This document shows, piece after piece, positions 20,701 to 61,700 of a stretch of 64,000 bases of DNA. Location: positions 30,360,906-30,424,905 of the forward strand of contig OY987264.1 in assembly GCA_963920665.1 (NCBI GenBank), in the 5' to 3' direction. This DNA comes from Straminergon stramineum. Lineage: Eukaryota; Streptophyta; Bryopsida; Hypnales; Calliergonaceae. The notes under the pieces were generated by a model, which made no database searches, was not told the origin of the DNA, and saw nothing but the letters and a program-made list of their open reading frames with translations. Numbering within the stretch: the stretch's first letter is position 1; each line of letters begins with the position of its first letter. The position numbers and the translations under genes were made by a program.

Positions 20701-20712
20701 ATTTGAAATTGG

Positions 20713-20715
<3 letters not shown>

Positions 20716-24091: not shown

Positions 24092-25085
24092 TTAACCCTT
24101 GAGCACCCCAAAGCTTCAAATTTAGCCTTCCAAAATTAAAAGATTGCCATGTTTGACTATTATAATCTTTTCAACGGTATGGTGAAATCATTTGTCTATT
24201 TCTCCACAGCTCCAGGCCTATCTCCACTACTAATGAATATGATCAATTTCTATGCATCTCATTTAGGATGACAATTTGATTGGAATGAGTTAAGAAGAAT
24301 CTGAATTTTTTTAAACATATGTTGGGTGCTCATGGGTTTACCAACAATTCTCCCCCAATATTGAGCAAATAGGGGTAGTCACAACTTCTTCATCAACTCA
24401 AAGTTCTCTGAAGAATGAAACAATAATGAGAGAAAACAAGAGTCATTGGGGAGCAATTGTGGGTGAAGAAGGCGTGACCCCCTTCTACTGTATCCAAGCA
24501 TGGAGAATAAAAAACTGTAGAATTGGTTTACCTTGAAGATTGGATGGGGTTTTTGCCCAAGGGTTTGGGGACCGAGTCAAATCCTACCACTTCTTGCCAC
24601 CATGGGCTCCAACGATGACAACATTGAAGTCGGCAACAACTGTCAAATGGGGAGCGGAGCAATGAAACTACGGAGCAAATGGGAAAAAAAATTCGCTCAC
24701 GAAGTCTTCTCCATGCCCATTATTCACCTCTCGAGAAGAATAATGGACGTGGAGAAGACTTCATAGAAAAAATACATTCTGTGACAGTGAGACAACTTTG
24801 AGCCAACGAAAAGCCGCCATGGGACTATTATGTGGAGAATGCTCGCGTAGTGAAGAAGCCGTGACTACCCCTAATGATTCACACGATACCCCAAAGGATG
24901 ATTTCCGTGGTGACTACCCCTAAACAGTGATCCCAGAACTGGCTAAATTTCGCTCAATTGCTACTTAATTTCTTCATGCCCTCAGTGTTAAATTCAAAAA
25001 AATCTTCCAAAAATGAACATTTGGCTAATTTCCCTGAACCTGTTCTGGGATCACTGTCCCTAAAGGGTCGGGGTTCCAGGGTTAA
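24092..25085. mobile_element. TTAA-flanked element, 994 bp (piggyBac-type ends)
   Basis: The left end is TTAACCCTTGAGCACCCC and the right end GGGGTTCCAGGGTTAA. The ends are inverted-repeat matched (CCCTkGArCrCCCC), with TTAA on both outer edges. Inside are inverted GGGGTAGTCAC (about 24371) and GTGACTACCCC (about 24867 and 24910) blocks and the hAT-type element 24925-25056. No transposase was seen. It lies immediately upstream of the cyclophilin gene. Confidence 0.6.
24925..25056. mobile_element. hAT-type MITE, 132 bp (uninterrupted copy)
   Basis: Ends are CAGTGATCCCAGAAC and GTTCTGGGATCACTG, a perfect 15-bp inverted repeat. The 8-bp flanks are CCCCTAAA (24917-24924) and TCCCTAAA (25057-25064), matching at 7 of 8. 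The interior matches the 19.1-kb copy, for example CTTAATTTCTTCATGCCC and AAATGAACATTTGGCTAA. Confidence 0.88.
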
Positions 25086-26651
25086 TTAAGGGTTAAGATT
25101 CTGGCAAAAATTTGGACTGCCCGTCCCCAGCTGCCCGTCCCCAGCCTGGCTCTCTCACCACGCTTCTCTACCCCCCTCGTTCTTCCCTTTGTTCCTCCTC
25201 CCCATTGCCTGCCTTGCTTTCCCATGCTTTCCCTTGCTTTCCTTCCGCTTTCGCTTTGCCTTGATGAGCCGCTCTCTGTCTCTGCTCCCACTCCTCCCTT
25301 TTCTCATAATCACACTTTACTGTTTCTCCTTGGAACCCGTTCTCCCTGGATCCTTACACCCTCGACTCCAGTCTGGCCATGCCGCTCTAACAGGGAGCTT
25401 TCACTGCATCCCCTCCCAAGTCCCAACCCAACACCACACAACACACAACAGGCGACTTCCATGCCATCCATGCATTCCCTTCACACCGATCGAGATCAAT
25501 GTGTTTCCCAATGGTAGCTCGCAGCAACCAGTTGAGCTTCCAGGCCATGGCCATCAGCGGATCTCGCATTGGGGAGCTTCAATTGTGACAGGTACTTATA
25601 CGATCCCTTCTTTCTTGTTCGATCGATCGATCGATCGAGCTCAATGTGGGGCTCTTTTAATTACTGGGTGGAAGAGCTGCGATGGATGGATGGGTAGGCG
25701 AATATTTCAAAACGGAATTTTGAGGAGTCTTCTGCTGGATGGTGTGGTGTGGTGTGGTGTGGGTGCTTGGTTGTATGGGAGCTGCATTGGGATGCGCAAT
25801 GTGGGTAATTAGTGGGTGTTTTTGATAGAATGGGGTGAGCCTCTGATCTTTGGGTTTGACGGGTTCTTGTGGATTGTTTGTATTGTAGAACAGGAGTGTT
25901 GGATGAACAGTAAGTAAGGAATTGGAGTGGATTGGAGTCGGGTGACGTTGGAGTGCGAAGATCAGGTCCTGCGATCGGTTCTTTATCAGCTTTTGAATCT
26001 CGGGTGATTGAGGTGAGAACTTCATTGGTAGGGTCGGTGTTTTCGAGCTTTAGGTCATTTCACAGTCACAGCGAGAATGAGGAAGAGTTGAGGTAGTGTA
26101 GGACCCCGGTTTCAGATTCTGTAAGAGTTGATGCTCTTGTGGATGCAATGCGTAATCTCGAGCTTGGAAGGCTAGATCCAGTGGAATTTCAGATTTTACT
26201 CTGTTTTGGTCTTTGAGATTTTCTCTAATCTAAGTGTGGGACTCAACGTTTTAGCTGGTTTCGTCTTGGAGTGGAACTAGGTGATGGAGTGCGACTTTGG
26301 AATTGAATGTGAGGTTTACAAATTCACTATGCAACTAAGTATTGTGGAATTAGAAGTTGGAGATGCAGATGGATTGTTGAAGCAGTGTTGAACAATTCCC
26401 AAGGGCACTAACATTTGATATTAATGTGCTACTAATGTAGTAATTAGTTATATTTGTTTTTTGGAACATCAAATTTGAACTCCGATGCACTACTGAAATT
26501 TGAAACTCAAGCCAAATTTGGGAGAAATGCGTGGAAATAGGAGAACCTGACGTGGATTTTATGGTTTCTGTTGGATTTTGGTGTGAAGCTTACACTCTTT
26601 TGATTGACTGTGCTGTTGAGCATTGTGAACTTTAGAAGACTGTTGGTAGGA

Positions 26652-26880
26652 TTAACCCCAAGTGCGGAAGTTTATAAAAAATAGGAAGTCCACTTTAGAA
26701 GCTAATAGAGAGTTAAAAGCAACTTTCAAAAAAACATTCTAGCTTTTGCAAATGTAAGGTTTGATGCTCCTTTCTGTTAATACATTTTGCGACCTTTCTT
26801 GAAGCTTCCGAAATGATAGATTTCAACTCTTATAGACATGGATGCGGTTTCTTCTCGTCATTTGGGCAATTACGGGTTAA
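26652..26880. mobile_element. Possible TTAA-flanked element in cyclophilin leader intron, 229 bp
   Basis: The left end is TTAACCCCAAGTGCGG and the right end GGGCAATTACGGGTTAA. The outer TTAA and CCC/GGG match the pattern seen at the other TTAA elements in the window, but the inverted-repeat match beyond six bases is weak. Confidence 0.4.
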
Positions 26881-26882
26881 TA

Positions 26883-27176
26883 GATGACTTAGTTTGAGGA
26901 AAAGAGGCAATTGCTGACTCCTTTTGTTGACTGTAGAGTACGTCATTTCAAGCTTAGGATGTATTTGGAAGCTCTTTTGCAATGTCTAGAGTTGCTCGTG
27001 CTTGGAAACAAGAAATTGTGCAGGTAATAGATGGCGTAGATTGAGGAAATGACGCAATTGCACACTCCTTTTATTGATTGTAGAGTATGGCATTGCAAGC
27101 TTAGGATGTCTCTGGAAGCTCTTTTGCAATGCCTTGATTTGCTGGTGCTTGGAAACAAGAAATTCTGTGGTTATTG
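26883..27176. repeat. 147-bp tandem duplication in cyclophilin leader intron
   Basis: Unit 1 is 26883-27029 and unit 2 is 27030-27176. Shared blocks include CAAGCTTAGGATGT, TGGAAGCTCTTTTGCAATG and GTGCTTGGAAACAAGAAATT. The copies keep the same length but differ at many positions. Confidence 0.85.
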
Positions 27177-27484
27177 GGTCAAAGCAGAAGACTTCTTCAT
27201 GAGCTTCTCTTGTTGCTTCATCAACATTTGCTGCATTGTGGTAGCTTAAGAGGATCTCCAAGATCTAACAGTCCTGATTTAGTTTGAAGGAGAGGGTGAT
27301 GTCCAACAATCGACTTGAGTCTCTGATTCAGAGTAGGTTGAGTGCAAGTTTTCAGATGTGAGACCTCAAAATATATGATCCAAGGGGGCTGGGGACAGTG
27401 TGCTTCTGAATTGGGACTATGATATGAGCTGACAAATGTTTTTTTATTTCGTCGTTCATCATGTGCAGATAGTGCAATTCCGAT

Positions 27485-29441
27485 ATGGGATGTGGGTCGA
27501 GTAAAGCTCCTAAGTGTTACTTTGAATTAGCAGTCAATGGCGGTGTCATAGGGCGTCTCGTGGTCGAGTTGCGAGTGGACAAGGTTCCCAAAACGGCGGA
27601 GAATTTCCGAGCTCTGTGTACTGGTGAGAATGGGAATTCGTATGCTGGAAGCACCATACATCGGATTGTTCCAGGTTTCATAGCCCAGGTGAGTTTATTA
27701 CGAATGTTGGTTGAAAGCACACCTTTAGGTATTTACTGTTTTGAAGACAGTAAAGCTTAACAGTAGATTTATACTGTTTCAGGAAAGTTTTGTACATCAT
27801 CAGTGAGATATTCCCTATGATACGTGACAGGTCTCCCTATTGTCAGAGTAATTATATGGAAGTTCCGTACGATCTTTGTGGCTATAGAGAGACCTCCTAA
27901 TGAATCATGGGGAAATTTCTCTATACGATGCCGACTGAAAGTTAGTTTTATTAAGAACCTCTGTGCTTCCTTGAGGAGAACAAGTTGTGCTGTAGAATAA
28001 GGAGATTATCATTTGCCAGACCCTTCGAACAGCAGTAATTTCCATTCAGAATTGTATTCTTTTTCTATCAGGGGATTGTTTAGAATCTGCAAGTCCTGGA
28101 GTTGACTTTCGCACTTGCAAGTCTCTGAATTATGCAAATCAGAAAGTGTTCTTTAAGAAATTTCTCATTTTAGGCTGGATCTGAATTTATTTATTTTTAA
28201 TTGTATTCTAAGGGTGGCGAGTGTGGAAAGTCGATATATGGGAAGAAGTTTGAAGATGAGAATTTCAAGCTTTTGCATAAAGGGAAGGGTGTTCTTTCCA
28301 TGGCCAACACTGGTCCTCATACTAATGGTAAGCTTTTTGTTATCTCGGATGAAAATTGGATGCTAATTTTTTCTCTGTAGGCTATGAATTTAGCTTGCGT
28401 AATTTGTGAAAGACCTGGTAGTCGGTTTACTTCCTGTTGGTTATCTATCCACCTGAAGACGGAGATGCTTTACATGATGCTGTACAAATTATTTTATGCT
28501 TTACCCGGTCGTGTTGGTGTGTTTGACATACCATTCCTCTGTCAAGGATCTTGAAGAAGTCCTAGCATCTTCTTAGAAATTTTCAGTGCCAACTTTTAAC
28601 GATTTAAAGTTTTCTCCTGGTGTTGAAAGTGGGGTGCCCTCTTCTGTTTCGCAGGTACTCAGTTCTTCATCTCATTGGGTAACTGCTCTGAATTGGATGG
28701 AAAGCACGTAGTGTTTGGAAAAGTTGTTGAAGGTATGTCATCTACTCTTCAGTACTACTTCAGTGCATCCCTTGGGGCATTTTCAGATTGCATATGTCGA
28801 AGCTACAAGAAATCCATAAACCTTGATTGGTGTAAAAACGAAAATTTATCCATTTTATCTCGTTTTGCTCAATGTTGATTTATCGTTTCAAGACACTAAT
28901 TTAACGAAGTCACTATTTTAAATTAGTGCTGGGTTGAAATAGTACTGTATTCTTCTCATTTCCACCGAATCGTATTTTGTAGTTACACTAATTTTGCAGC
29001 CCTAGTAATAGGATAAATCATTGTAATCCAAGAAACTAGATTGAGCACATAGAGGTGGCGCTTGCATGTCTCCTACTTGTAAGCTGAAATTATTTAAATA
29101 CCTCTTTGAGGTGGATTGAACACTTGCTATCTCAACTGCGTCATAAATGAAATGTATGAATTTAAAGCTTGTTAACTCACCCGTAGTTGCACATGATGTT
29201 GGTTCAAATTTTAAGGTTGGACTTGTGCAATCTAAAGAGACCCTAGTTATTGTTTTTTTTAAGGTGGAATTTTTCTGAAACGCACGTGAATCTTAGGACC
29301 TTTGCAACGTGCCTTCTGATTTCTGATGTCAGTAAGTGATTTTGATCAGGGAAGGAAATTCTGGACGCTTTGAATGACTTGGGCAGCACGGAGGGAACTA
29401 CTAAGAGCACAGTAACTATTGCAAGTTGTGGGGAGCTTTAA
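27485..29441 (+). CDS. Cyclophilin-type peptidyl-prolyl isomerase with MGCGSS N-terminus, 162 aa
   Basis: Exons: 27485-27688, 28213-28327, 28655-28732, 29350-29441, all in phase. The product is a single cyclophilin domain that isomerises Xaa-Pro bonds. By alignment to human CypA, H59/R60, F65, Q68, Q109, F111, L120 and H124 keep the active-site pattern ([31 protein letters not shown]). The residue matching CypA Trp121 is Glu119, and the loop after QGG is about seven residues shorter than usual, giving [11 protein letters not shown]. The N-terminus MGCGSSK fits an N-myristoylation site (Gly2, Ser6) with Cys3 available for palmitoylation, implying membrane anchoring. An in-frame stop 15 bases upstream supports this start. 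No transit or signal peptide is seen. Length is normal for single-domain cyclophilins. Confidence 0.92.
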
Positions 29442-29811
29442 CACGAAATCAAGTGTTTATTTTGTAACAGCAAACCTAGACCCCCTCACACATCAATGAC
29501 GCAAATTTTATGTGGTGAGTTGTGCGCCTGAAATAGTAAAACTATGATTTAGAAAGTTGATTATGAGAAAACGATTGAGGCTTTTTTGTAGTTGCAGGGA
29601 AGCTCAAGTTGAGTTAGTATGCATTTCCCTCATTTTTAACATAGTGGAATAATTCGAATGGTAGCAAATTATTTGTCTGCTCAAGAGACACAGGACGTTG
29701 AACAGGCGAAGGCTTTTTTATTTCTGCCCCATTGAATGTCGAGGCATCTTCCTGGTCCCGTAACTTACCATTTGGTTTAGGCTGGTTACTTGTGCTCTTG
29801 TTACATTTTGG

Positions 29812-30026
29812 TTAACCCTGGAACGCCGAGTTGGTCATCGTGGAAATCATCCTTTTTGGTATCATGTGAATCATTTGCTTAAGAACACCCAAGAACACTC
29901 CAAAGCATTCATTGGAGGTCAAACTATTGTGGAAGACCTGTTTTTACACAAAATTTCAAAGATGAACACTTGCATTTCTATCTTACATAGAAGGATTCTT
30001 TGTCTTCCATTGGACACTTAGGGTTT
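29812..30026. mobile_element. Diverged TTAA-type element downstream of cyclophilin
   Basis: It starts TTAACCCTGGAACGCC. Its interior is clearly related to the element at 35043-35271: both contain CGTGGAAATCATCCTTTTT, then GTCAAACTATTGT and ACATAGAAG in the same order and spacing. The right end has decayed to CACTTAGGGTTTG, so the terminal TTAA there is lost. Confidence 0.6.
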
Positions 30027-31846
30027 GCAACAATGATACAAGGTTTATCAAGTATTAGTAAGTGAAATTGAAATGACATTAGTTGTGAAACAAGTACTAG
30101 AAATAATGTGAAACCAAGTTGTCAATAGAAAGAAGAAATCGCCCCTATATTTAGGGGATTGCTAAATGTTATTGTTACTATTTGAATGATAGAAATATAT
30201 TCTCAAAGTTACTAGTCATTTAGAATTCTTTTTTTACTTTACACTCTTAGAGGTTATTGTAATAAATTGCCTACTAAGAATTGTGACATGCAATTGGTTA
30301 AATATGGTAATTCTAGACATATGTGGTGATGATGTATGCATTGTACAATGTTCATTCATTTGTTGAATTTGAAAGGGTATCTACATGCCAAAGGTTGCTT
30401 AGTATAATTATATAGATTGTTTGCTTGTCATTTATCAAGCCAATCTTTATCAAAAGGTGTTAATTGTATTGATGTGAAGTTTATGATAATACACTCATCA
30501 AATGAAACCATGTTGGCATTGCTCTCACAATATCTCACCAATCTTCTTGAGTTAAATTGAATGTGCTCTTTTGTATGAGGCCCAACTTGAGCATTTCTTA
30601 TATTTATGAAGCAATATGTGTAAATGGATTAGTGATTTGTTCTCAAGTTTATGAATCCTACCTTGTTTTTCCAATTTAGTAATTTGTTTTCAAATGATAT
30701 GTTGGAAAATGCCAACTCTTGGTTTGCAAAGATGTGATCAAAAGTAATAAGGATCACAACCCTAATGACATTTGGGTGAACAATTAAATTATGTTGCAAA
30801 TTACTTTTTGAAAGGTAAAATCCAAAGTTTCTCACATTCTAGGAATTCACAAAGATGTATAAAAAATACAATATCTAATAATGATCGAATAAGGGTATAT
30901 CCAATAAGGATTGTAGTTCAAGTGAAGGGTTGTTAAAGTGTGTAAGTTTGATGATGGTTACAAAATTCAACAACATTTATGGATAAGACTATACTAGAAA
31001 GTGCCGGGTCACCAAATTTAGAAAATATTGTTCTACCTACATCTCATCCCATTGAGGAATTTTTAACATCATGTGATGGTTGGGTGAGACCTTCTAGTCA
31101 AGCCAAATGTAAGACTCTTTTGAGCCTTCTACAAGGGCATGTAACTTCTCAGACTACAATAACCTCTACTGTATTTGAAGATACAACAACATTGAAAAAA
31201 ACATAACTAATCATCCAAGAGAATTTTAGAGGAAGCTAAGTTGGTCATTCATATCCAAAGATTGTTTTTAATTGGTAAGTCATTCATTGCAAGTGATTGT
31301 AATTTTGAGGCTTGTATTATTTTTGGTACATATAACAAGTTAAAACAAGAATAAAAAAAATTCCATGTATCATTTTCAGTAATTGAATAGGATTTGATTT
31401 TTGATGGATAACTAACAATAAAAAAATCTATTATTATACCTTGATTTTTTTGGTAAATCTAAGTAGGCAATAAAGTCCTTGGTTCAAAGTCAAATTCTAA
31501 TGAGTTATAGGTTTGTTTTAAAATATGAAATCCCATTGATTCATGTATTAATTTTAAAGAAAACAAAAACAAAAATTATTAAGTGTCCAAGCATAATATA
31601 ATTATATCAATACCTCTATATTTAGATTATTAAAAAGTTGAAAAAGAAATTTTTATAAGTTTGTTATATAATCTACAAAGAAAGATTCATCAAATAGTTG
31701 TGTGTGTATTAATGAGAATAATATTAGGTATTGAAAAATGTTAGGTTTTTGTCTTCTATTCAAAGAGAGAAAAATTTATAAAAAGAAAACTCCCACCACT
31801 GGCCGTAGTTTTTGTCTATTGCATAATGAAGTTTTTGTACTTATGT

Positions 31847-32476
31847 TTAACTCCTAAATGTCCAAGGCCTTTTTTGAGCTTCTCAGAATTTGCTCTAAAT
31901 TGAACAAAAAGCCAACATTTTGATAAGTTTTGTCAATTTTTTTGGAATTGTAACTGTACAAATTCAAACAAATCATATCGGAAAAAAATATCACTTATGA
32001 TTGAAAGATTATAATGTTTGATCATGAGGGTGTTCAAATTGTGAAAGTCATTTGAGGTCTTTCAATCCTCTTTTCACATGTTGAAACCAAAAGTTGGTCA
32101 CTAAAACAATATGAGGTTAAAGGGCGAAACATGTATAACTCCAATCACTTTCCGTCTTTTCAAAATCTATTCTCCAAATTTTTAGATGAATTTCTTATGT
32201 GATTTTTTCTCCAAGTTCTATTGTATGTGAGGCTCATTTCAAAGAGCCTTCAAAACTAGAAAATTAAGATTTGCAATGGACACCCTTGTACAAAATCTTG
32301 AATAGAAAAACCATAATCATTCATTTTCAAAATCGGGTTCTTGATGCTAAAACTAGACTTCAAATTTAGAAAGTTTCAAAACTTATTATACTAAAAAAAG
32401 TAACTTGATAAAGTTTTATTTAACTTCAAAGTTTTTTTGACACTGGAATCTCATGCCTCACGCATTTAGGGGTTAA
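31847..32476. mobile_element. TTAA-flanked element, 630 bp, upstream of the kelch-like gene
   Basis: The left end is TTAACTCCTAAATGTCC and the right end CGCATTTAGGGGTTAA: an inverted-repeat match of CyCCTAAATG with TTAA on both outer edges. There is no coding capacity. Confidence 0.55.
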
Positions 32477-32637: not shown

Positions 32638-35600
32638 ATGGATGCATTGGCAAAGCCTACTTTGGATCCTAATGTTGAAAATATACCAACTGCTCCATCA
32701 ATCTCCAATGTTGAAGTCCCAACCACTCCCAAACCTCAATTAATTGCAGACAATCCAATGTCAAAGTCTACGATTCCTCGTGAATATTGGCCTAAAAACC
32801 CTCGTACTCGCGAGAGATCTCTTTTGCGGACAGTCTCTCTTTTAGCTTATAATCCAGCCGAACATTATATGGATACAAAATGGATTGCTCGTAGAGCCAC
32901 ATTCTTGCATCACTTAGACGATGGTGAAAAGAAATTTGATGCAGAACTTGTAGTTGACATGAAACGATGGAACCAAGAGATTGTTGACTCAGAATCGGCA
33001 TTGAATGACCTTGCTACTCCTAAACAAAGGCATGCATGTAGTCAAGGTAATATGCTTGATACTTGGGTCTATGAAGGCCAACTTCACACTATTGAACAAG
33101 ATTTAAGAAATGAGTGGCCACCTCTAGTGCCACACCGATATCGACACTTCAAATATGATCATGAACTAATATGTCCTGAAGATTGGGAGGAAACTCACCA
33201 AAGATCTACATTAGTGGGTAGTAAAATCCATCCTCTTGCCAAATTGTATCATGACCGTTCTCATGATAAGGTAATTTTATGTAATTCTAAGTAATTCAAT
33301 TATTATAAAATCAAGAATTGTAATAACTAATGACAACAAATATTTGAAATTATTAATTTTTAGAATTTTGAAATGCTCAAAAAAATTAGAATTTGTGACA
33401 CCAGATTTTTTCCTATAAAAAAATCCTAGATAAAAATATTGAAAGGTAGATTTTTAGAATAATATATGAATTTATTTATATAAAAAATTTCAATAATAAA
33501 AGCAATAACATTTGAGTGATTATTAAATAATACAATAGGAAAGTACAATATATGTTTGTATTCTTTTCTTTTCAAAATGACTATTTCAACACCTATTTTG
33601 GATTTCTTGTGAAATTTATTATACAAATGAATTCTTAGATAGTAGATGAGTAGAAATGAGATTTTTGTTTTTAAAATTTATGGAAATCATGATGTTTCAT
33701 AAATTCAATAACCTCATTTTAGGAAAAAACAACAAAAGAAGAACAAAGTTTTATAGATGAGAAGAAAAAAACATTAGAAAATCAACATTATGTAGCAAAT
33801 GTTCCAAGGTTTGTTTTTGGACACTATCCTGCAACATCTGAACTAGAGACACATCTTCCAATTGAGCAACATCTTGAGAAAACTCCTAAAAAGTTGAATC
33901 TTTGGCCCCCCAAACCTACAATTTATCCAAATTATCTTGAGCCACCTCCTGGTTGGCGAACATGTGAAAAAAATGCCATAACTCATTATTTACCTTCTAG
34001 TAAAATGAAAGGTAATTGTAAATTTTTAATGCAATATTTTGATTAACAATATTAGGAAATTTATTTTAGGAGTATTTATTTTAATTGGTATAATTAATAT
34101 CAAATTTTTTTAAAGTAAAATTTTCCTTCAATTAACACACAAAGAAGAAATCATGTATACATTTGGTCAAACCTCATTATTTTTCTAGGTGTTATATATT
34201 TAATGAATTCTTTGGAAAAAATCCTCATATTAAATACAATTATCTTTAAAATAGTATAAAATTTGTAGAAAAAATGGAGAAAATAGTTATATATCAAGGT
34301 GTATTTCTTGGCCTATACCTTTGTATACTTCAAAAAAGGAGAAATTCAATAGAAAAAGTTTTTAAATAGTATATTTTAAGCCTTGAAGTCCATGCCTAGT
34401 AAGATCAACAATTAAATTTTGTTTTTTTTATTAAAGTTGATTATTGAATAAACAATAGATTTTAAGAGTTACATTTTCATGATTGAGCTGAAAAGAGTTT
34501 AAAATCATTTAAAAATTTGTGTTTGACATTTGAAATTCTATTTAGGCTTGAAATCTCTTTAAAGGTTTTAGATTTAATTTATATTAATAATAGAATTTGA
34601 AAGAACATATATGATTTTAAAATTATATATTTGGTTACACTTATATTTATTTATGTATTTTTTGATATAGCTTTAAAACAACACAAGGGAAGCTTTTTCT
34701 TATTGAGACATGTCTTGTTAGTATTCAAATTGAATAAAGAATTTTGGATATATTTCTTTAGAAATTTATACAATTTAAACTACAATTTATCACTACTTTT
34801 ATCATCAAATTTGAAATATATAGAATTTTTTTTCAAAGCACCATTTTTACTTTCAATGTTAATGCATATTATATAGAAAATAGTCAATACTTAATTGATC
34901 TAGTATAGATCATTTTCTATATTTGAAGGTTTTTTAACTTGAATGTTTAGTATAGTAGAGGTATATTGATTTAAAATTTGCATTATATCAAAGGAAAACC
35001 AAATCATCTTTGATTGTTTTGAATTACTATATAAAAGTTCTTTTAACCCTTAAAAGAAGGGTTGATAACCGTGGAAATCATCCTTTTTCGTACTGTATGA
35101 ATCATTGGTTTAAAAAAATTCAGAAACACTCATTGGAAGTCAAACTATTGTACAAGACCTCTCCTTCTTGCACAAAATTCTAAGGATGAATAGTTGCACT
35201 TCTCTCCCACATAGAAGAATTCTCTATTATGCATTCACTGAAAAATGGGTGTAGCATCCTTTAAGGGTTAATATCTCTCCTCAAAGGATATAAATTCAAG
35301 ATTTTATCAATGAACTTGTCCTTGAAATAGCCATTTTGATCAAATTGTTGCAGGTCAAGAACTTTTTGATGCTTGGTCAAGATTCAATAAACATGTAAAA
35401 GAAATTATAATGTGGAATCCCAATTTTCTAAAAGATAATAATAAATATTTTCTAGTAGTGTTACATGTCAATTCTGGTAGTAATTGGATAGGTGGATACA
35501 ATCGTGAACTTCGAAATAAAGAATGCCCATGGCCATGGTTGTCAATTGCAATGATGAACTTCCTTCCTCTGGATGTCAATACGGTCATTGCCGGAGAAAA

Positions 35601-38600
35601 AGGACTTGTTGTATTAGATGGAGGAGAATACTTGACTCTTCCAAATCAAGAATTTTGGAGGGTGAAATGGCCATCCCAATCCATAACAATGGTGGTCAAT
35701 CCAATGGTCCAAACATTTCAAATAATACCTCCACTTGAAGATCCAAAATATGCTCAAGAATTTAAGATAGGAAGACTTCTTGTAGAAGAGCTTCCAGGTA
35801 CTAGAGGTTGCTATTACCTGAGCCTAGAATCACTAGCATATGAATACAAAAGTCTATCAATATCTATGTTATAGGTATCTTACTATATTATAAAAACTCT
35901 TCATGATTAGAGGGCACCTATGTTATATATAACTTATATTATAAGTGTTTATACTAAAAGCACCTTCAATGGTTGCACAATATTTACTAATATATATATG
36001 TTCAAGGCTTGTAAGCTCACATTTCTATGCTTTAAATTATGCTAGTGTTGTTGTAGGTCGAAGCAAGAGCTATTACAAACTTTACATGGTTGGAGAACGG
36101 TCAGGAACTTTTATTGAAGGAGGAGTAACATGCACATACATAGGAAGTTTGGTAATATTTTTAAAATCCATTTTTTTCAATATTATTATTTCAAAAAATT
36201 AAATTTTATTATTTCATTTCAATTTATTTTGAAATAGAAATTTAAATATTTTATAAATAAGAATGTGTTGATTTTTTTAAAATTTATTTCATCCATATTT
36301 TGTGATAGAATATGCAATTTAACCCTTAAAGTACAAATGTGACCCCTTACAACCAAGATAGTCATCTAAACTTACTATGATATTTATTCGTTTCATAATT
36401 GAGGTGCATTCTTTGTTTTTATAGTGAACAATGAAATCATCCATCAACCGCTTTGGGGCTTCAATGTCCTTTAAGAGTTAATAAGTGTTTTTTTCAAGTC
36501 CTCCACAATATCTATTAGAAGAAAAACTTTGTCAATTCTTTGCTTAACCCTTGAAGGATACTAACTGTGGATTCAAAGTGTCTTGATGGATGACTTCATT
36601 TTTCATTGTAGAAACAAAAAATGCACCTATTAGTCTAATAATCCAAGCAATTTTGGTAACTACCTTAGTTATGTGGGGCCATGTCCTTCAAGGGTTAAAT
36701 GTATATGTATATATATAATCAAGTTTAAATTCTACAAACCAATGTCTTGATTAAGGTGATCATTTACAAAAAACTTCATAATTGACATTATAATAGGTGA
36801 CAATATATGATTCTCGATCTCATACAATTAGTGACATCAACACATTTGATGTTCGGCCATCGCCTTTGGGTGTATCAAGCTTAGTTGTTATGCATGGCCA
36901 CATGATTTGGGGCGGAATACGTGTTGTTGGTCAAAGAGAGAGAATTACGGAGATAAAATCAAAGCGATATCAACCTGCTATTGGAAAACTTGAATTTGAA
37001 AATGGAATTGTATCCTATGATCTTTTACACAAAAGATTTAGATTCCAAAAATTTGCTTTACATCCTGAGGTTGGTGACCTTGGTGATGAAGATGAATGGG
37101 AATCACCAAGAATTTTATGTGCATATGGCATAGCTTATTTAGTAACTCGGAAGGTACTAATAATCGATATCAATTAATTTTCTTAAAAATATCGTTTTGT
37201 TTTTTTCAATTGGATGTGATAGAGTTAATTGTAAAGTGTGTACAATGAGGAACTTAAGAGTGGGAGTTTGAGAAAAACACAAGACAAAACTCCTTAACTG
37301 AAGTACCCAAATTGGGTTTGGATGGAGTTTGGTGTTGTATTTCTTTTGTACTATTTTTAGTTAAACCTTCCTCAGTCTCACATCCCTTCTACAAAGTGGG
37401 GTTCACTTTATGATTAATTTTAATATAGATCTTTTTTTGTTTAGTACTATATATTTTACAAATTGCAATTTTTCCAAATGAATAATTTATGATATTTACC
37501 TTGTGAAATTCTGAATTAGATGTTGATTCATTCATCCGTTCATATATTTTATTTTTATTTTTATCTCACATTTAATTGATATTCTTGTTGCTTAGAGAAA
37601 AAACACATATTTGATGGTCTATTTTTATGTCTATTTCTAATGTTATTGAAGCATATACCAGATAAGATTTGCAAAAGAATTTAAAATGCGGACTCAATTT
37701 GATTCTACCTTTTATGTCTTTCCACCTTGTGTATTTCGCATATATAATAATGCAGATCCCGTACATATTCACCCCATGTCAACCATGCCTAGCAATATAC
37801 ACAATTGGCTCTTTGGACCCAAACAAGAAGATTACAACAAATGCCGTTTTGATGTACGTGGCGGCATGGGAGAGTTGTGTATCTTTGCTTATTTAACAAT
37901 GAATTTTGCAATATGCACACCGGAAATAGACAATTGGAGGATTCTTGAAACCACTCATAATGTTTTGCCAAGTCTACCAAGGTGAATATAAATTTTCTTT
38001 TGTTAATGGTTTAATTTTTATTTTTAATTTATGAAAAAATATCTTTCTTACAATCAACAAATTTTTTTGATTTTGTAAAAATAATTTTTAAATCCATAGA
38101 TATTTCAGAACCCAAAATCTAATATTTTCACAAGATACAACAAATATTTATTTTTAATTAGATATTGAAATGCAAAATTTATAGTCCAATATATGTCCAC
38201 ATGTCAAATAATGAAGTCATCCATACATATCTCTGTTTTTTTATATTTTTTTCATGCAAAGAATTCTTTTATTACAATTGAAATCTACTTTGGAAAAAAA
38301 AATGTAGAATGCAAAATGATAATTAACAGTTTAGCTAATGTTTAATTTTAGATCTTTGGAGAGATTGAATTTCTTAAACCTTAAAAAAGATACTATTCCT
38401 CTAGGAATTATAATATTTGAATTTGAATATAGTCTAGACTTTGAATGTAACATGGTTACTATTGCGTGAAGCTTATTGAGACTAGCAGATTGTGAATTTA
38501 TTCCAAATTTTCGAGCTGAACCCAAACATCAACCTGGTGAACATTATTTGACATGGGAGGGCCAAGGAAAATCATATCCTAAGCTTTTCCGACCACCGAG

Positions 38601-46600: not shown

Positions 46601-48047
46601 GCTCCATCAACATCCTGTGAGTATCTACCGCCGTCTGCTGCATTGCTGGTTCAAATATACTCATGGCATACACTTGTAAAAGTAGCTGCACATGCTCATG
46701 CATCAAACAATATAGCTGTCCGATCTGACGTGCTGTAAACCCACAATCTGAAGGCTGCCTCTTAGCACTGCATACCGACGGCCGGGACGCAGTCCCTGCT
46801 AGAAGCCGGCTCCGCTCACCAACTGAAACGTTCCCGGCATAGGGCAATAAAGGCCTTAGCGGGGCCTTAGCACGCCATGTATTGAGCACTTTATTCTGCA
46901 CGCTTTCTCTCTTTCGCCGTTTCCCTCTGGTCACAGGTCCGCGTGCCCGCTTCCTTTTGCGGCCAAGGCCATCTACACCTTCTTCGACGTCACTTTCTAG
47001 AGCTTCGTCAATTTCAATGACGAAATCGGCGTCTTCGTCCTCACTCTCACTTTCTTCGATCCCTTTCTCCTGCTTCAGCGTGGCATGCACAGGACGGGTC
47101 AATTCCAAAAAAACGATTCTGAAAAATCATGCTCCAAATCAGAATTAGGGTGGATAGCATCTCCCCAGCACCACCTACAGATTATGCTATTTAGTGAAAA
47201 AGCAAGAGGAGAGAAAATTTCGCATCAGTCTGAATTCCTTGTCTACAAAACGTACACTAATCACATAGTTATAGTGCAGCGAACAAAACGACAGTGGTTT
47301 AGGGTTTGCGGATTCCACATGCATTTTCCGGGTAACTACTGGGAGGTCGAATCCAGCAGAACTATAGTCTAAGTAATCGTGCCTTGTTTCTTAACCCCTA
47401 AGCGCTCAGAAGTCCATATTCTGCCATGTTCTGAATGATGAATATAGGGCTTCCGGGCAATGTTTTGTGCCGAAGTAACTATTTCTTGAATCTTTGAAAA
47501 GCAAATTCCCTCTATCTTTGACCAATTAGATGAAAGTGAGGTAAATAATATAATTTGACAAAGACACAAGCAAAGAAACATGCAAAATTTCAGAAAAAGG
47601 ATTAGGGCGTTAAAGGGTTAACACTACGAAAATAACTACTCTGGCTGCGTTCCGGGGCTTTACCAGCTTCTTCTGCTCTTCTAATCCCCCGTTCCCTTGC
47701 ACAGCCGCCAGAAACTTGCGATACTCTTCCTCATCATCCACGTTTTGGAAATAATCCTCTTCATCCGATTCCTGGAGAAACGTTTCCAGCTGATCAAGCG
47801 ACATATCCGCGAGGGAGTAGTGCGCTCGGGTGCGCTTGGAGATCGCATCCACCAGATCTTGCTCATCTTGGGACGGACGATCATCCGATCGCCTGCCCCA
47901 TTCACTACTTCGGGAGGGACTACTGCGCCACTCAGGCAGACCCTCCAGAGCGTGGCTCATCATCAGTTCCTCTTCGCCGCGATCCTGCGAAGGGGAACAG
48001 GGAGAAGAAGGCATGCAGGAAGGGCTGTCCGCGTCGTCCAGGTCCAT
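43638..48047 (-). CDS. Plant GON4-like SANT/Myb-like nuclear protein, nine exons, 798 aa
   Basis: Exons in transcription order: 48047-47664, 47069-46409, 46181-45975, 45856-45556, 45447-45363, 45019-44963, 44673-44614, 44425-44216, 44069-43638. All junctions are in phase; the second donor (GTCCTC) is weak, so that boundary is less sure. The layout is typical of plant GON4-like homeodomain-like proteins: SEWG and EEYRKFLAAV near residues 60-120; an acidic run and EIDEALESD (about 129-155); a basic RKRKRARGPVTRGKRRKR nuclear signal (about 165-182); FTARQIGQL...HVQLLLQVYAM (about 239-264); FRPPYIRPSVP; GPVRSLMDVAPLALV (about 395-410); and two SANT-like segments, GLMTYNNDWKAIQERFLPSK...RQKNR and PLTADEVACIEEALKVYKYDW, then VPYRDPATISRQWRVAIGTQKSYK (about 515-630). 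GON4/GON4L proteins act in transcriptional repression and chromatin. The C-terminal 140 residues are low-complexity, Ser/Pro-rich. Confidence 0.85.
47391..47621. mobile_element. TTAA-flanked element in GON4-like intron 1, 231 bp
   Basis: The left end is TTAACCCCTAAGCGCTCA and the right end AGGGCGTTAAAGGGTTAA. The termini share the CGCyC block with the element at 59939-60797 (TTAACCCCTCACCGCTCA). It lies within the intron 47070-47663, and its right edge is about 40 bp from exon 1. Confidence 0.7.
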
Positions 48048-48420
48048 GGCGACGACGGAGAGAAAAGGGGCCAGGGATCATAACCCTAATTTCAGAAAAA
48101 CACAATCTCAACCACAAGTTCACCTGATACTCCCAGACCCGCAACGTCAAGCACAATATCACCTGCTATTCCCCCAAACGCAACCTCGACTACTGAATCA
48201 TCTGCTACTCCCCAAACCGCAACCGCAACCACAAATTCATCTGCTACTTTCCAAAACCGGAACCTCAACGACAAAATCACCTGCTACACCCAAAAGTTTC
48301 GCAATCTCAAGTACAAATTCAACTGCTACTCCCAAAATTTTCTCAATCTCGGGCAAAACCTAAACTTGTATCACGATCCTCAGTAGCAAAGAGCAGATAA
48401 TCACGGAGCCAGAACATTTC
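48048..48420 (-). promoter_or_regulatory. 5' flank of the GON4-like gene with a 39-42-bp minisatellite
   Basis: Upstream of the minus-strand ATG, six imperfect units run from 48121 to about 48360, each starting CACCTGCTAyTCCC-like and containing CGCAACCTC or CAATCTC. Starts are near 48121, 48160, 48199, 48238, 48278 and 48320, so spacing drifts from 39 to 42 bp. The array probably sits in the promoter or 5' UTR. The plus strand is open here and would encode 13-residue repeats (HLLLPKPQPQPQI-like), but I treat that as incidental. Confidence 0.7.
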
Positions 48421-50748: not shown

Positions 50749-51662
50749 TTAACCCCTAGAGGACCAACATGAGGTACAAAACTACTTCAAAATACTCATC
50801 CTTAAAGTAAGGTCGAAATCTTTTATCAATATTTATATTTTAACAAATCCAACCGTAGGATCCTTTGGTTAACTTGTTCAAGTACATTGTCCCAAATTTT
50901 TAGAATGAATATCTTGACCAATTGCAAGTTCAATGTCAATGTGACTAAACTTCAAAATGTAGCTTTTCTAGCCCTTCCAAATGGTGAAGTTTTGTCTTTC
51001 AACATTTTTAGAAAAAAACAAGTATATCATGTAACTTGTGCATTTTAATCAATGTATTGAAAAATGGGTTAAAAACATATATAAAAAATTTCAATTAAAA
51101 ATACTTTCATATTCATCTTTAGAAAAATTGTAAAGTGGAAGGTAGTATATATTGAATGAAAGAAAAAGCTAATTTGCTAATAATTTTTACAAAAATTGAA
51201 AATTCTTAATTGCAATGGTGAGAATTTTCTATTTAAAAGTTTGTATTCATTATTTTTATTTTTATTTTTTCAAAGTCGAGAGCAAAAGACAACTTTATAT
51301 GATTTTTTCTACCTTCATGGTTGACAAAATAAAACTCCTCATAATTTTTTTTCATTATTCTGAAATTGAAAGGTTCTAATGTTTTTGAGTAGATTTTAAT
51401 CTATATAATTCCAAAAAAATAATTAATATTTTTTTAGATTATATTTTTTGTTGCCCAATTTGACATTGAAGTCAAAAAAGTCCCTCTAACTTTTTCAATA
51501 TTTATCAAAATGACATGAAAACAAAGCTTCACTCATAGATTTTGATGAGTAGTATCCATTGGACTAAAATATTCTTGCCAAAATTCCAAATTATGAAGTC
51601 AATAGAAGTTGCCCAGGTTCTCAAAAAGCCCTAAGTGGGCTCCTTGGTCCTTTAGGGATTAA
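50749..51662. mobile_element. TTAA-flanked element, 914 bp
   Basis: The left end is TTAACCCCTAGAGGACCAA and the right end TTGGTCCTTTAGGGATTAA, an inverted repeat of about 18 bp with two mismatches and TTAA at both edges. The interior is AT-rich without coding capacity. Confidence 0.75.
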
Positions 51663-55193: not shown

Positions 55194-56145
55194 TTAACCC
55201 CTCAAGGTTCTTGACTATGTTTTCACCAAAAATGCTCTAAAAATGTTATTTCTAGTACAAGTACCAAATTCTGGAAAAAAACATTTTTGGACATATGTAT
55301 TTGTAGGATCTTGTAATATGATGGTTTGAAAAGATGTGAAAAAAATTTCAACAATTTTCACTATGTAGATTACAAGATATAAGTGTTTGAAGCGACAAAA
55401 ATCCCTTTTGTTGTCTTGCAAAAATTTGGGCAACTGCACTTCACAAGGTCAGATCATTATGAAAAAATGTTCAAAATGTTTTCAACTCTTTTGATTCATT
55501 CTTCAAGGCAAGTTATCTATATGCATTGAAAAAAATTTAGATCATTTGGAATGGTACAACATATAGGAAAAAATTAATATGTATAAAGAAGTAGAGAATG
55601 ACTCCAAATATTAAACTATTAACAATTTATTTATAGAATTGAAAAATGCCAATCCCAATAGTTGTGATCTTGTAATAAACAATCTGCATCGAACATTTTT
55701 ATTTTTTTCCCGAAAATATGGAAAATTGAATCAAATAAAGGTCTTCAAAGTTTATTTTTGAGTGAAGATTTCATAACTACCCAGAAACTACCCACAACTA
55801 AAATTCCTTGTAACTTTCATCTCTTAAATCAAAATAGAAAGATTCAAAGCTTTCCACTCATAGATAAATCTAGAAAACCAATTTCAAATTTTTATTTCAA
55901 AAAAAGGGATTTTTAAAGAAGTTTTTTTTGCCCAGGCTGCCTACTGAGCAATGAGAAGTACATATCATATAATAAATTTTTAATGATGTATTCAGAAGTA
56001 ATGAAAATTGTTGGGTCTTGAAGCTACTCCTGGAGTATATGATATGTGAAAATTTCAAAGAAATAAAATAAAAATTCCAATCATAGTAAATCACCCCAAA
56101 TCGCTATGTTGCCAAAAAAATGCTATTTGGTGCTTTAGGGGTTAA
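55194..56145 (+). mobile_element. TTAA-flanked element, 952 bp
   Basis: The left end is TTAACCCCTCAAGG and the right end GGTGCTTTAGGGGTTAA. The interior matches 20772-21451 in reverse orientation over most of its length, which shows a dispersed family with defined ends. No transposase frame is present. Confidence 0.75.
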
Positions 56146-56734
56146 GAGAATAGTTGTTCCATTCTGAGGGCTTTTCGTTGCAGTAACTTAAGTTACTCTA
56201 AGTAATCATTGATGCAGTTTGAGCTAAAAACATTGCACAAATAGTCTAGGTGTGGTCAATTCTGTCCAATAACTTACCGGTAAATATACCGCCAACCCAA
56301 CGTTCGTTCAATTCTGTTGTACTGTACTGTACAGTACTGAACATGGTGGAGAATTCAAATTCGAGCATCAGGCTACGGCAACCTTGATTTGCTGATTTTG
56401 TTAATAATCAGAGGATGACAGCACAGTTGAGAATTAAAAGTTAAGCAATTAAGTATGGGAAACGGGGCAAAGTTTCAGGTTGAGTCCTCTTTTGTGATGA
56501 TGATAAAGAGACAATTGCTTGGAAGCAAGAGTAGCAAAACTAATCTTGTTCTGAGCATCTAACAGCCGCAGTATCAACTAATCAAAGTAGGGCTCCTCTG
56601 CCGAACGTCAATGTTCCACAAGTGTAAGTCCTTTGTAGAGTTACTTCCTATTTAAATAGTATGGGAATGATGGTCCTTGGCTGTTCATGGCTGTTGATTT
56701 GGAGTGCTCAAATTTACTGCTGAGTGAAGATAGC

Positions 56735-58331
56735 TTACAGTCTTAGGGCCTTGTTAGTGTCGGGGTTATTGCCCAAAGCCTGACGAATGAGCCTTTCGGG
56801 GACGACCGTCTCTCCAATGAAGCGCAAAATTTGATGAGTAAAACGCTCCACCAACTTGAATCCTCGAGAAGTTTTTTTCTTCATGCTACAAAGTTGATAT
56901 AGGATTTTGGAGATCCTCTCAAGGGTTGCTGCTTTTTGAACTGCCTGAGTAACCTGAATAATATTGGTCCCTGACTTATAATCGGAGAACATGGCTTCGC
57001 CGAGCAAATTTTCTTTGTTTTATTTAGAGCAAATTGCTGAAGCATCAGACTTGGCCAGACTCTCATATATACACTGTTATACATTTGTTTAGTCGGAATC
57101 ATACTCTTCAAATCTTCTCCGCACACGTCCATCTTCCCCTCCTCCATAGCTCCCGCTTCAATAATCCAGCGGTAACAACTTGAATTTTCAGATCTGGAGG
57201 TGAAGGTCCTCAACTCATGAATTTCAAAGTTTTTGGCACAATGAGTTCCTATTTGAATCAATTTTCAACAAGATGGAGAAGTATTCATACTTTTCTCTAG
57301 CTCTAATCAGCTGCACAACACTCTCGTCTAACATGACAGAACTGACGACTTTGCCAGCCAATTCATCACTCGAATTCGGTTCATCCGTTTGCCTGCCTTT
57401 CCTTTTCCGACTTCTTGATTTGTCTGGCAGAGTCGACACCTCCTTTTTTTTCGATTTTCTGTCACCCTCTGCAGCTCCCTTCTTGCCCTTTTTCTTTGAC
57501 CGAGCCTTTCGCTTCTTTTTCAGTTTTGCAGCTAACCTGCAGACCGATTTACAAGAATCAATCCTTCAGCAAGATTACCAAAAACAATACCTCTGTTCTC
57601 CAATTTCAGATTCAGGTGTAATTTGAATTTCGTTTTACATCTTTCAAACTTTGTGTGTGTATTAACAGTTTGAGAATGAAGTCTATGAAAACAGAATAAA
57701 AAATTGAAGCCTAAGGTAATCCAAAAAACAACTGAAAAATGGAATGAAACGGATACCCTGTCCTCAGGTTCCCAAAGACCCTCGACCGGAGTAGACTTCG
57801 CAACCTTGGTCGCAACATATGTGAAATTCAACAACCGAAAACATTACGTTACAAAGAAAACACATACCTCTTCGAATTCTCTTTCCCATTCCTCCGAGAC
57901 TGCTCTGCCTCCTCTCGACCCTAATCACAAGAAAACCTATAACCAAGCGAAATTCAAATTTCCTGAGCACGAATGCAAGGCCGAAAACTACACAGTATTT
58001 AAAATCATACCAGCACGATCTTGTCACCTCCAAGCTTCCTATGAGCATACCATCACCTAAAAACTGGTGACCCTAATTTTCCCACAACTACACAAACTTA
58101 TCACCTCCGAGCTTCACGAAAGTGCATTCCATCACCAAAACAGGGAAACCCTAACTCTTCTACACCGCACAATCTTATCACCTCCGACGAGCTTCCCATG
58201 ATCAACAGAAATGTAATCCATCAACAATTTTTTTCGGACACTAAGAAGCGCAGCCGATTTCTTTACCTTACCTTGTTTAAAGTGATCTCCTCAGAAGCAT
58301 CGTCGTCTGAATCAACCAGAGGATCCGCCAT
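56735..58331 (-). CDS. Unrecognised basic nuclear-looking protein, five exons, 232 aa
   Basis: Exons in transcription order: 58331-58272, 57920-57868, 57536-57291, 57193-57073, 56953-56735 (last acceptor could be 9 bp later). All are GT-AG and in phase. The protein starts MADPLVDSDDDASEE. Residues 38-90 are extremely basic (KLKKKRKARSKKKGKKG, KSRSRKRKGR) and likely a nuclear or nucleolar signal. A conserved-looking block VVSSVMLDESVVQLIRARE follows at about 101-119, then CYRWIIEAGAMEEGKM. The C-terminal 70 residues are predicted helical and contain LERISKILYQL, FKLVERFTHQILRFIG and PERLIRQALGNNPDTNKALR. I do not recognise the family. It is divergently paired with the HACD gene and probably shares its promoter. 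Confidence 0.62.
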
Positions 58332-58703
58332 GTCGCCTTAAATTGACAGAATTCCAAATTGCTAGACGATTCTCTCGCTTCTAAATGCAAGGCAACGCTC
58401 CAGAAGAGACAGCAGCAATACTAGGCGATTCCGCGACGGAGATGCTCACAACGTTCCCCGATGCTCCCACGTTCCCCGAAATTCGCAAAAGTTCCCCGTT
58501 AGGGGCGCGTAAGCGTCTCCTAACGGGGCCCATAATAATTCAAATGACCATTCCATTTCCTCCGTTCATTTTGCGACGGAAAGAGGAAGCCATTTAGCAA
58601 AACTCGAAACTCATATGCAAGCTTATATTCATCGCCATCAATTAGGGTTTTCCTTAGAAACTCTGCTTCACTTTGCTTGCAATTGCACCGCCAACTTCTG
58701 GCT
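58332..58703. promoter_or_regulatory. Divergent promoter interval, 372 bp, with a GC-rich hairpin
   Basis: Start codons of the two flanking genes face away from each other across this interval. It is GC-richer than the surroundings. It contains repeated CGTTCCCCG (about 58452 and 58470) and a further GTTCCCCG (58491-58498). The last runs into an inverted repeat CCCCGTTAGG (58494-58503) / CCTAACGGGG (58519-58528) with the inner halves GGCGC/GCGTC partly paired. This may be a binding site or a duplicated cis-element. Confidence 0.55.
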
Positions 58704-61700
58704 ATGGCCACGGCATACCTTGCATGCTACAATGCTGCTCAATCGATTGGCTGGTAAGATTTTAGTCCAATTTCTCGCCTTTTTAAGTCAAGGATTTCCT
58801 GTCGTTTTTTTCTCTGCACATTTCTCTTATTCCTTGCGTCGCCATCTTGTATGGAGTACGACACGAATTTAATGCTCGACTCGCAATTCGCTCTGCAATT
58901 TCTGGAAGGACGTACGTTGTTATCTTTACATTGCTGAGGTGTGAGGTTTATGATTCTCTGAAACTTGTTTGGACTTGTTTGGACTTGTCAGGGCGGTAGC
59001 ACTTGTACGCCTCATAAATCATGTCGGCGAGACGAAGTCATTGACGGGAGGATTTTCAGCCGCCGGCAGTGTCGTATGTAAGTTCGGATAGCTTCATGTT
59101 CGGTTAGTCCTCTTTTAATTCGCACTGCTTTTAGAATCTCTTTGGCTCTTGGTGGAAGCACTCTGTAAATTGTCTACAGTTGTTAATTTTGGCGCGATTC
59201 AAAGCGCCAGAAATTGTGGCATTCAACGGTACAAACGTTTTAAAAAAATTGATTGGAATTGGTATTCGTTTCAGCAATGTATGTGTCGAGAATTTTCACA
59301 AATTTAACGAAATTTAGGTTGCAGTGTATGGTTACAAATTCTTTATGTCTATTCTCTGCTTTCGAAATGGAGGTACTGGCGTGTTAAAGCCCGTTCTTTC
59401 GGGTATTGATTCCCCGTTTAGTTGAGGTGAAAATTTTGACGAGACTGATGTACCTGTGTTGTATTTGCCCAGGTTTCCTCCAGCTGGCTGCTTTCCTAGA
59501 AATCGTGCATACTGTTCTGGGTGAGCGCATACCTGTACGCATTCGTCAAGTTCATGTAGCCACAGTGTACTTTGAATTCAACCTCCAGAATGGAATGCTG
59601 GCTTCCGTATATTAATAGCCAGTGTTGAAGTAGAATGTTGCAGAGACGCAGGTTAAACAGCCTTTGCTTGCATCTGCGTTTGTTCTAGAACCTTGCAAAT
59701 TTTAATTGTGCAAGATGGTTTTGTTGTGAAGGTCTGGTGCGCACGAGCACCCTTTATGCATTCATGCAATGGCTGGGTCGAAGCCATGTCCTTTTCGCAA
59801 TTATAGCCAACGTTCCTGAGGTAAGGCCTGGCTTGCTAGATGACCTTACATTCATTTTACATCTTTGCTAGCTGTCTTCTTGCTGTACGGGACGCGGTCT
59901 GTTTATGCGGCTAATGCATAAATTAAAACCGAAGTACCTTAACCCCTCACCGCTCATGCTCGGCCGCACTGTCATCAAGGCTTTGCGGGACCAACGCAGA
60001 AATTGCTCCGCAACGTAAGATTGGGGGTGGAATTGGTCAAACTCACCGCAAGGATTGAAGAAAGCCTTCGTAACAAGGCCGCTTGTGTGTTCTGATCGAC
60101 TTTCCACCGGTCCGGTCCGATTATGTGCAATTTGCATTTGATCTCGCCGGAAAAAGAAAAATCTGTCACTTTTGGGTGCACTGTCTAGTCGTTCAGGATT
60201 TATAGCAAGCGGAGTGATTGAAGCCTGGGCTACAAAATTGGTGGGTGAGCGCAAAGAAGTGCTCTGTTAGTGTCAAAATTTGTGCGATCAATAAGCATGT
60301 GCATTTATCTCCATCTGACAGGGTTCTTTTAACACAGATACCGGCAGTGATCTGCTGGGAAGTCCGTAAGTGACCGGCAGTCGCAATCCATGAGTGAAAC
60401 AAAGAGTGCAGAAAACATCAAAATTGATAAAACTTTCAGAAACCAAGATGTAATCACCTTCGCCATGACGGAATAAGCTCAATGCAGTCAAGATTCTGGA
60501 GACTCACAACACAATTTGGCCGAAGCTGCCGGACACATCCAGAGCCCAGCAGTCTCAAACCGCCCTGAACAAACTGCCTTGTCCGATTTTGTAGTTCTTG
60601 CCAATCCAAGCCCTGAATTTCACGAATTGTACGCCTAACTGTCTTGGCAATTGCACAACCTTATTCACGACACTGAGCCTAACAGGATTTCTCATCGCAA
60701 CCCACAATTTGGAGTCCCAGTGAAGCATTGGGACTTTGGGAGCCTTTGTTTAATCCTGTGTGGACACTTTTGGTCCCCTTGGGCGGTCAGGGGTTAAACC
60801 ATATTTCACATGGTAAGCGATGAATTATGTAGTTGTGGTGCCGGCTCTCAAATATACCTGTTTACTTGCGCAGGTGCAAGAACAGCCTCCAGTTATGATC
60901 ACTTTCTTAGCATGGTCCACAGCTGAGGTTTGCTTTACCAAGTTGACTTTTATTTGGCTTATATTGCTGGTGTTTTTTGGATTCTTTTGCTGTGCATTTC
61001 TCAATGACATTTCTTAGGAACATTTGGCCCAAAGTCTAACCCAAAATATTCTGTATTGATGTTTCGGCAATTATATATGGCTTCTGAGTTTGTCAAGTTG
61101 TATTGAGATTGGTTGATAGGTGATACGCTATCCACAGTATACCCTTGGGATTCTGGGCGTGTGTCCTCGTTGGTTGACTTGGCTACGGTGCGCGGCTACA
61201 TTGTAGATCTTAATGTGCACTGATTTCTCAATATTATTCTTTAATTACGTGTTTCCTTTGAGTTATACTTGGAAAATATTGATCCGATATGGGGTTAATT
61301 GTGCTAGGATTTTTAAAAGTACTGTGTTGTTTTGAATATATGTTTTGTTGAAAGTTGTTTTGTCTTCCAGTTAATCTGGAAGAAGTTCACGCATTCTCAT
61401 CATGCATTTCTTTCATCTTGAATTGGATTATTAGAGAATTCAGATATCTCAGACATGGCTTCCGTCTCTATTTACTTTGCCAACTTTTGGGTCACGAAAT
61501 CATTGCACTTAAAATATCTCTTGGTGAGTCTTTGCAGGTACACTGCATTCATCGTCCTTTACCCAATTGGAGCGCTTTATGGAGAAAGTAAGTGCTATTT
61601 TGATTATCGTCCTACATTCTTAGCTATGCTTTCTCTATTGACTCATCGTTATTTTCTTAATTGCATTTTCAATCTACACGGAGAGACTTCACACACATAA

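Follow-up and report, generated by a model that had tools for sequence, protein, structure and literature searches.

piggyBac transposons are defined, in the available text of a study of coral elements, by inverted ends of 12–19 bp with the terminal motif CC[C/T]T (PMC2872659). The same text describes coral piggyBac elements and miniature inverted-repeat transposable elements (MITEs) at TTAA, with ends such as CCCTTTAACGCCC, CCCTTTAAGCCCTA and CCCCTCAGTGTCCG, and a coral CMITE family III whose ends also read CCCC (PMC2872659). For plants, the main text of a 207-genome MITE survey, which recognizes five superfamilies plus Micron, contains neither the word TTAA nor piggy (PMC12550479). A fern repeat table lists 1,230 PiggyBac copies, so the superfamily had been annotated in a land plant before (PMC6890710), and a plant review names PiggyBac among the superfamilies, in the part available (PMC10794571). 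Among the matches listed in a literature search that scarcely covered preprints, no title or abstract opening reported a natural piggyBac in a moss. Here we analyze a dispersed set of TTAA-bounded elements in a 64-kb window (the whole stretch of DNA under study) on contig C2 of a 326-Mb moss assembly of 59 contigs. Judged from sequence, the window elements are very probably non-autonomous members of the piggyBac superfamily, as the preliminary description had proposed; the moss family belongs to a known superfamily in a host group with little documentation.

The moss elements resemble Trichoplusia ni piggyBac (6x67) and Myotis piggyBat (9c0f) in their TTAA edges, CCC ends, PF13843 transposase, motif aspartates and Cys-rich tail. 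They differ in host, a moss, and in size: four transposase-bearing moss elements span 5.1–6.6 kb, against ~2.5 kb for T. ni piggyBac and 2.2–3.7 kb in corals. Their ends read CCCC rather than CC[C/T]T, and the named animal proteins in one of two protein searches are 29–31% identical. The short window elements share with coral CMITEs and AmiPB1-6, as these appear in the available text, the character of piggyBac MITEs, TTAA, and CCCTTT or CCCCT ends (PMC2872659). One end of the window element at 47391–47621 and one end of its relative are identical to the left terminal inverted repeat of AmiPB2, CCCTTTAACGCCC, at 13/13 positions. More broadly, 7 of 36 moss ends (one in the window) match at least 11 of 13 positions of one of the 12 coral ends found in that text, compared with 3.0% of 601 control CCC[CT]T 13-mers. 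The CMITEs described there measure ~100 bp and conserve a single interior, whereas interiors sort the moss elements, of 149–994 bp, into several families. The latter also resemble the plant MITEs in the available text of the 207-genome survey, being likewise short, non-coding, bounded by inverted ends and located in plant DNA (PMC12550479). Annotation of plant MITEs under five superfamilies may miss or misname such elements.

Paired TTAA-bounded termini in the window

The window contains ten TTAACCC and 14 GGGTTAA words, which form eight convergent pairs 150–1200 bp apart. Simulated sequences of Markov order 1, 2 and 3 (100 runs each) yielded mean pair counts of 0.32, 0.13 and 0.11, with maxima of 2, 2 and 3. 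Pairs in the opposite orientation occurred once. When the 15 other palindromic four-base words were joined to CCC in the same way, AATT gave one pair and the remainder none. The excess of convergent TTAACCC and GGGTTAA pairs in the window is confirmed as real and beyond chance.

The preliminary description had listed ten such elements and two decayed copies. The coordinates of all ten proved exact to the base, and TTAACCC/GGGTTAA termini are present, with one imperfect end each in the elements at 31847 (left, TTAACTCC), 36319 (right, TTAACTCT) and 50749 (right, TTAATCCC). The element at 26652–26880 is unproven: its termini match poorly, and BLAST found no relative within the sampled DNA, which took in 150 kb of the window's surroundings plus five additional loci (the window and its surroundings form a 214-kb region). 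Both decayed copies held up. The one given as 20772–21451 belongs, in truncated form, to the 55194 family and lies at about 20758–21448; that at 29812–30026 represents the 35043 family in decayed form. All elements are listed in Table 1.

Transposase-bearing elements and shared ends

The earlier text had also suggested searching the genome for a PF13843 (DDE_Tnp_1_7) transposase between termini of the same type, and four such elements of 5.1–6.6 kb were found. These are the four loci at which both flanks were read, three chosen for an end already seen and the C3 element (L051) for its unbroken frame; at 4/4, both TTAA-bounded ends were located. All four lie between TTAACCCC ends, and the three other than the C3 element have TTAACCCCTSASCGCCC ends. 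Beyond the TTAA, the inverted ends are perfect over 13–14 bp in three elements; those of the C3 element have 9 perfect bp and agree at 15/18 positions including the TTAA.

Two window families, represented by 55194–56145 and 59939–60797, share both ends with these transposase-bearing elements, as judged by alignment. Reversed, 59939–60797 matches the 5,149-bp element at its 5′ end over 60 bp (87%, E 1.5e-15) and at its 3′ end over 26 bp (92%, E 3e-5). Bases 901–952 of 55194–56145, also reversed, correspond to the 5′ end of the C3 element (52 bp, 86.5%, E 1e-11), and bases 1–389 to its 3′ end (66.7%, E 4e-24). The relative of 55194 at C2:30336447 matches the two C3 element ends at 89% and 67%. 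In both window elements the matches run from the very first or last base, in the correct order and orientation. Across 100 shuffles of the C3 element, nine matches with E up to 1 arose, the best at E 0.012. Weaker similarities link the first 48 bp of 24092, at 75% identity (E 3e-4), to the C1 element's 5′ end and 50749 to the C3 element, where the terminal match spans 18 bp only (E 0.012).

Two other kinds of transposon were weighed against these shared ends. Kolobok, or Sola3, would offer another TTAA-targeting superfamily that only resembles piggyBac; the available text on Kolobok and T2-MITE of Xenopus indeed reports a TTAA duplication (PMC6004289). Kolobok ends are given there as AG/RR (PMC6004289), however, whereas the moss ends read CCC, and where the same ends enclose a transposase, that protein matches PF13843 and piggyBac transposases of solved structure. 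We consider a superfamily of this kind highly improbable: Kolobok was rejected on end sequence, and for the 55194 and 59939 families it is refuted by the ends shared with PF13843-bearing donors. Alternatively, Tc1/mariner- or pogo-type elements might produce a TA duplication inside TTAA, and a pogo-like frame with DDE_1 / HTH_Tnp_Tc5 domains (807 aa, uninterrupted) does lie on C2 ~25 kb beyond the window (L016:5411-7831). TTAACCC and GGGTTAA were not found within 1.5 kb on either side of it, while the ends of the window elements are borne by piggyBac donors. A Tc1 or pogo origin was set aside and seems to us next to impossible.

For the piggyBac assignment, the sequences suggest the following course. 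The genome carries several lineages of full-size piggyBac elements, of which the four seen are 5.1–6.6 kb long, with TTAA edges, CCCCT inverted ends and a DDD-type PF13843 transposase. Internal deletion of such elements could leave short copies that keep both ends. A transposase encoded at another locus would bind these ends, cut at TTAA and rejoin the element at a new TTAA, carrying deleted copies along, and the other window families may have been moved by other piggyBac lineages. Cut-and-paste at TTAA without a footprint, catalysis by the encoded proteins, mobilization of the other window families and present activity are what we infer.

Transposase genes in the genome

PF13843 has at least 118 matches in the assembly, all above the curated cut-off (best E 7.8e-79); the count is a lower bound, with 116 of 473 first-look candidates scored. 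In the same search none of 14 control genomes had a match. Some frames have no stop within the domain. The C3 element carries an uninterrupted frame of 935 codons and a C1 locus (L053) one of 893 codons, both with tool-assigned GTG starts, so that the true start may differ. Over the 893 codons compared, the two frames differ at 9 synonymous and 12 non-synonymous sites, besides length differences. Together with L050, which is broken, and L054, they form a family whose longest BLAST segments (3.2–4.1 kb) are 96.6–98.3% identical; the figure is 92–98% for second segments, which lie in the repetitive 5′ part.

The C3 element protein contains the motifs LTIDEM, VLVMDSFF and MRGVDVADQ, and six Cys fall within its last 70 residues. 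Against the PDB it matches piggyBat 9c0f (E 3.4e-25) and T. ni piggyBac 6x67 (E 3.7e-21). Its three motif aspartates align to aspartates of piggyBat and presumably form the catalytic triad. Protein searches with two of the transposases returned 47 and 94 proteins, in which the nearest entries (71% and 83%) are records without a name; the organisms named in the two lists are all animals. The database includes proteins of Ceratodon, Physcomitrium and Sphagnum; at the sensitivity of this search, close relatives are therefore not among its annotated proteins.

In a moss, 118 or more transposase matches, together with unbroken frames and the MITEs derived from such elements, amount to sequence-level proof of piggyBac in a land plant and make plant piggyBac biology directly testable. 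A bolder proposal is that the moss harbors a living, plant-native piggyBac system, with several high-copy transposase lineages, a family that has moved recently and keeps unbroken frames, and derivatives; this we put forward tentatively, as a possibility that we would rather doubt than assume. If it were true, land plants would gain a DNA transposon of their own with footprint-free excision. Horizontal spread would agree with how very closely one terminus matches a coral piggyBac.

The 4.2 kb at C2:30318556-30322740, flanked by a pair of good termini, were considered as a possible full-size copy and rejected: 12 read-through frames gave no Pfam match above the cut-off, the one weak match having E 0.054. 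The interiors of two window elements were likewise without a Pfam match above the cut-off in six read-through frames (24092) and in 4/6 read-through frames (59939); weak matches in the two interiors had E 0.048 (24092), 0.099 and 0.24.

Boundaries, flanks and age of copies

The window families are dispersed mobile elements bounded by TTAA, as comparison of copies with their flanks showed. In the family of 55194 (F950), homology starts at TTAA in all three copies and stops at TTAA in both full copies. The full-length relative, C2:30336447-30337401, lies 80 kb away; its core is 83% identical and its flanks are unrelated (32%). In the third, truncated copy, homology is lost beyond ~20758, save for a 58-bp piece at 20661–20718. 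A 402-bp family outside the window (F402; copies L003, L009 and L010) has cores 85–87% identical and 25-bp left flanks 24–36% identical, with the TTAA lost at one of six edges (L003).

The family of 31847 (F630) behaves similarly. Its relative L010:3026-3670 is 76% identical with both edges at TTAA, so that homology within this pair is TTAA-bounded at both ends; the L062 relative is 77% identical, and C2:30483138-30483732 is 68% identical, its right edge not seen. The remaining families, F229, F150 and F225, are more diverged. Copies of F229 are mutually 62–79% identical and most have lost one end: TTAACCC survives at both in just two of the six aligned copies, 35043 and L008. A stretch ~170–210 bp from the right end of 24092–25085 also resembles F229.

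Two further pairs were compared. As far as the terminal TTAA, L049 and L058 agree at 93%; past it they differ on visual inspection, though BLAST carried the alignment ~33 bp over the TTAA. The L011/L012 pair also shares its flanks and is thus uninformative on boundaries; in these two C1 loci a TTAACCCTTTAGTGA-ended stretch of 585 bp is embedded in a pair of longer segments whose similarity continues past its ends, perhaps within a larger repeat. Separately, at L062/L049 the TTAA that opens the 5,125-bp element C2:2299996-2305120 is also the one at which the relative of 31847 stops, as expected if one had taken the other's TTAA as its target.

Terminus sequence

We collected 36 ends from 18 elements, which are not independent of one another. 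Their pattern reads TTAA, CCC, T/C, T, A/T (mostly), A, A, any, G, A/C, C, C. Among the positions after CCC, which lay outside the selection criteria, T occurs in 35/36 ends, A in 35/36 and G in 30/36. Outside the TTAA, no position has a single base in more than 19 of the 36. A matrix of the full terminus, at a threshold of at least 14 bits, gave 45 matches in the 214-kb region against one in a single shuffled copy, although as many as 26 of the 45 had gone into building the matrix. The bare 10-mer TTAACCCTTT is less discriminating than the full terminus.

The bare 10-mer is not diagnostic. Of 20 consecutive TTAACCCTTT sites scored with an 18-bp matrix, three exceeded 20 bits and seven had scores in the span of the ends that make up the matrix.

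Evidence weighing against a piggyBac assignment

Several observations count against assigning the window elements to piggyBac. The genome-wide count of such termini that the preliminary description had advised fails in its simplest form, for the short string: TTAACCCTTT is not commoner than its reversed control (1127/1129 versus 1333/1430), without any enrichment. Partners scoring at least 8 bits lay on the opposite strand at 8/20 of its sites and on the same strand at 6/20, no clear excess. The TTAA and CCC of the 36 ends were partly selection criteria, and for some elements earlier selection favored pairs with similar ends. The fourth terminal base is T in 20/36 ends and C in 16/36, the textbook motif being CC[C/T]T, and all four transposase-bearing elements start CCCC.

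The loci themselves add to this side. A TTAACCC end lay within 1.5 kb at 4/12 transposase loci. Five window elements, 31847 (F630), 35043 (F229), 36319 and 36544 (both F150) and 47391 (F225), have no donor among the four transposase-bearing elements, and F402 has no proven donor. Joined flanks of 20 elements revealed no empty site in the sampled DNA, junction-spanning matches being to self only. Kimura two-parameter distances between copies are 0.19–0.55 in the window families and 0.15–0.17 in the 402-bp family; at these distances the copies are old, and present mobility of the window-family copies would be a matter of extrapolation.

A narrower account follows from part of this evidence: only the 55194 and 59939 families would be piggyBac, and some of the shortest families (F229, F150) would be unrelated repeats whose ends are similar by chance or through choice of examples. 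Subterminal matches of F229 and F150 to the four donors extend over at most 16 bp, and loss of termini from F229 copies, described above, fits it too. Yet the ends of both families follow the same 13-bp pattern, their copies differ in flanks (gapped alignment of the left flanks gives no more than 50% identity), and the donor comparison covers both ends of only four among at least 118 transposase matches. We regard this restriction as unlikely.

Feature coordinates and surroundings

Table 1. Elements of the window (window positions) and transposase-bearing elements elsewhere in the assembly.
Element	Family	Position	Strand	Remarks
Truncated copy, inverted relative to 55194	F950	20758–21448	+	80% over 698 aligned bases; TTAACCCC end retained at 21448
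TTAA element		24092–25085	+	994 bp; left end weakly like the third transposase-bearing element, C1:3382959-3389515
Possible decayed element, unconfirmed		26652–26880		TTAACCC and GGGTTAA present
Decayed copy	F229	29812–30026	+	73% to 35043 over 191 bp; right end lost
TTAA element, multi-copy	F630	31847–32476	+	relatives at L010, C2 and L062
TTAA MITE	F229	35043–35271	+	relatives at 29812, L008:2438-2668 and three further places in the 214-kb region
TTAA MITE	F150	36319–36481	-	ends TTAACCCTTAAAG / TTAACTCTTAAAG; 69% to 36544–36698
TTAA MITE	F150	36544–36698	+	both ends TTAACCCTTGAAGGA; relative C2:30314598-30314746, 73%
TTAA MITE	F225	47391–47621	-	one end TTAACCCTTTAACGCCC; relative C2:30358510-30358731, 74%
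TTAA element		50749–51662		914 bp; ends TTAACCCCTAGAGGACC / TTAATCCCTAAAGGACC; partial interior relatives
Probable non-autonomous piggyBac element	F950	55194–56145	-	952 bp; both ends TTAACCCCT; reversed, has 5′ and 3′ ends like those of the C3 element
Probable non-autonomous piggyBac element		59939–60797	-	both ends shared with the 5,149-bp element C2:35082734-35087882
Transposase-bearing element		C2:35082734-35087882		5,149 bp; domain broken
Transposase-bearing element		C2:2299996-2305120		5,125 bp; domain broken
Transposase-bearing element		C1:3382959-3389515		6,557 bp; domain broken
Transposase-bearing element (L051)		C3:43274771-43281201		6,431 bp; ends TTAACCCCTAAAG; domain unbroken

The host, earlier described as a plant, can be narrowed to a moss on the strength of one gene. 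Among named records, a trehalose-phosphate synthase frame ~15 kb before the window (L022) matches Ceratodon purpureus best (84%); identities to Physcomitrium and Sphagnum are 73–74%. Other host-like frames around the window were recognized by eye only. They include, at L020 (C2:30484906-30494905), frames resembling an axonemal dynein heavy chain, which fits a plant with swimming sperm. Within the window, positions 48103–48340 hold a tandem array of six 39-bp units, each 69–74% like the first.

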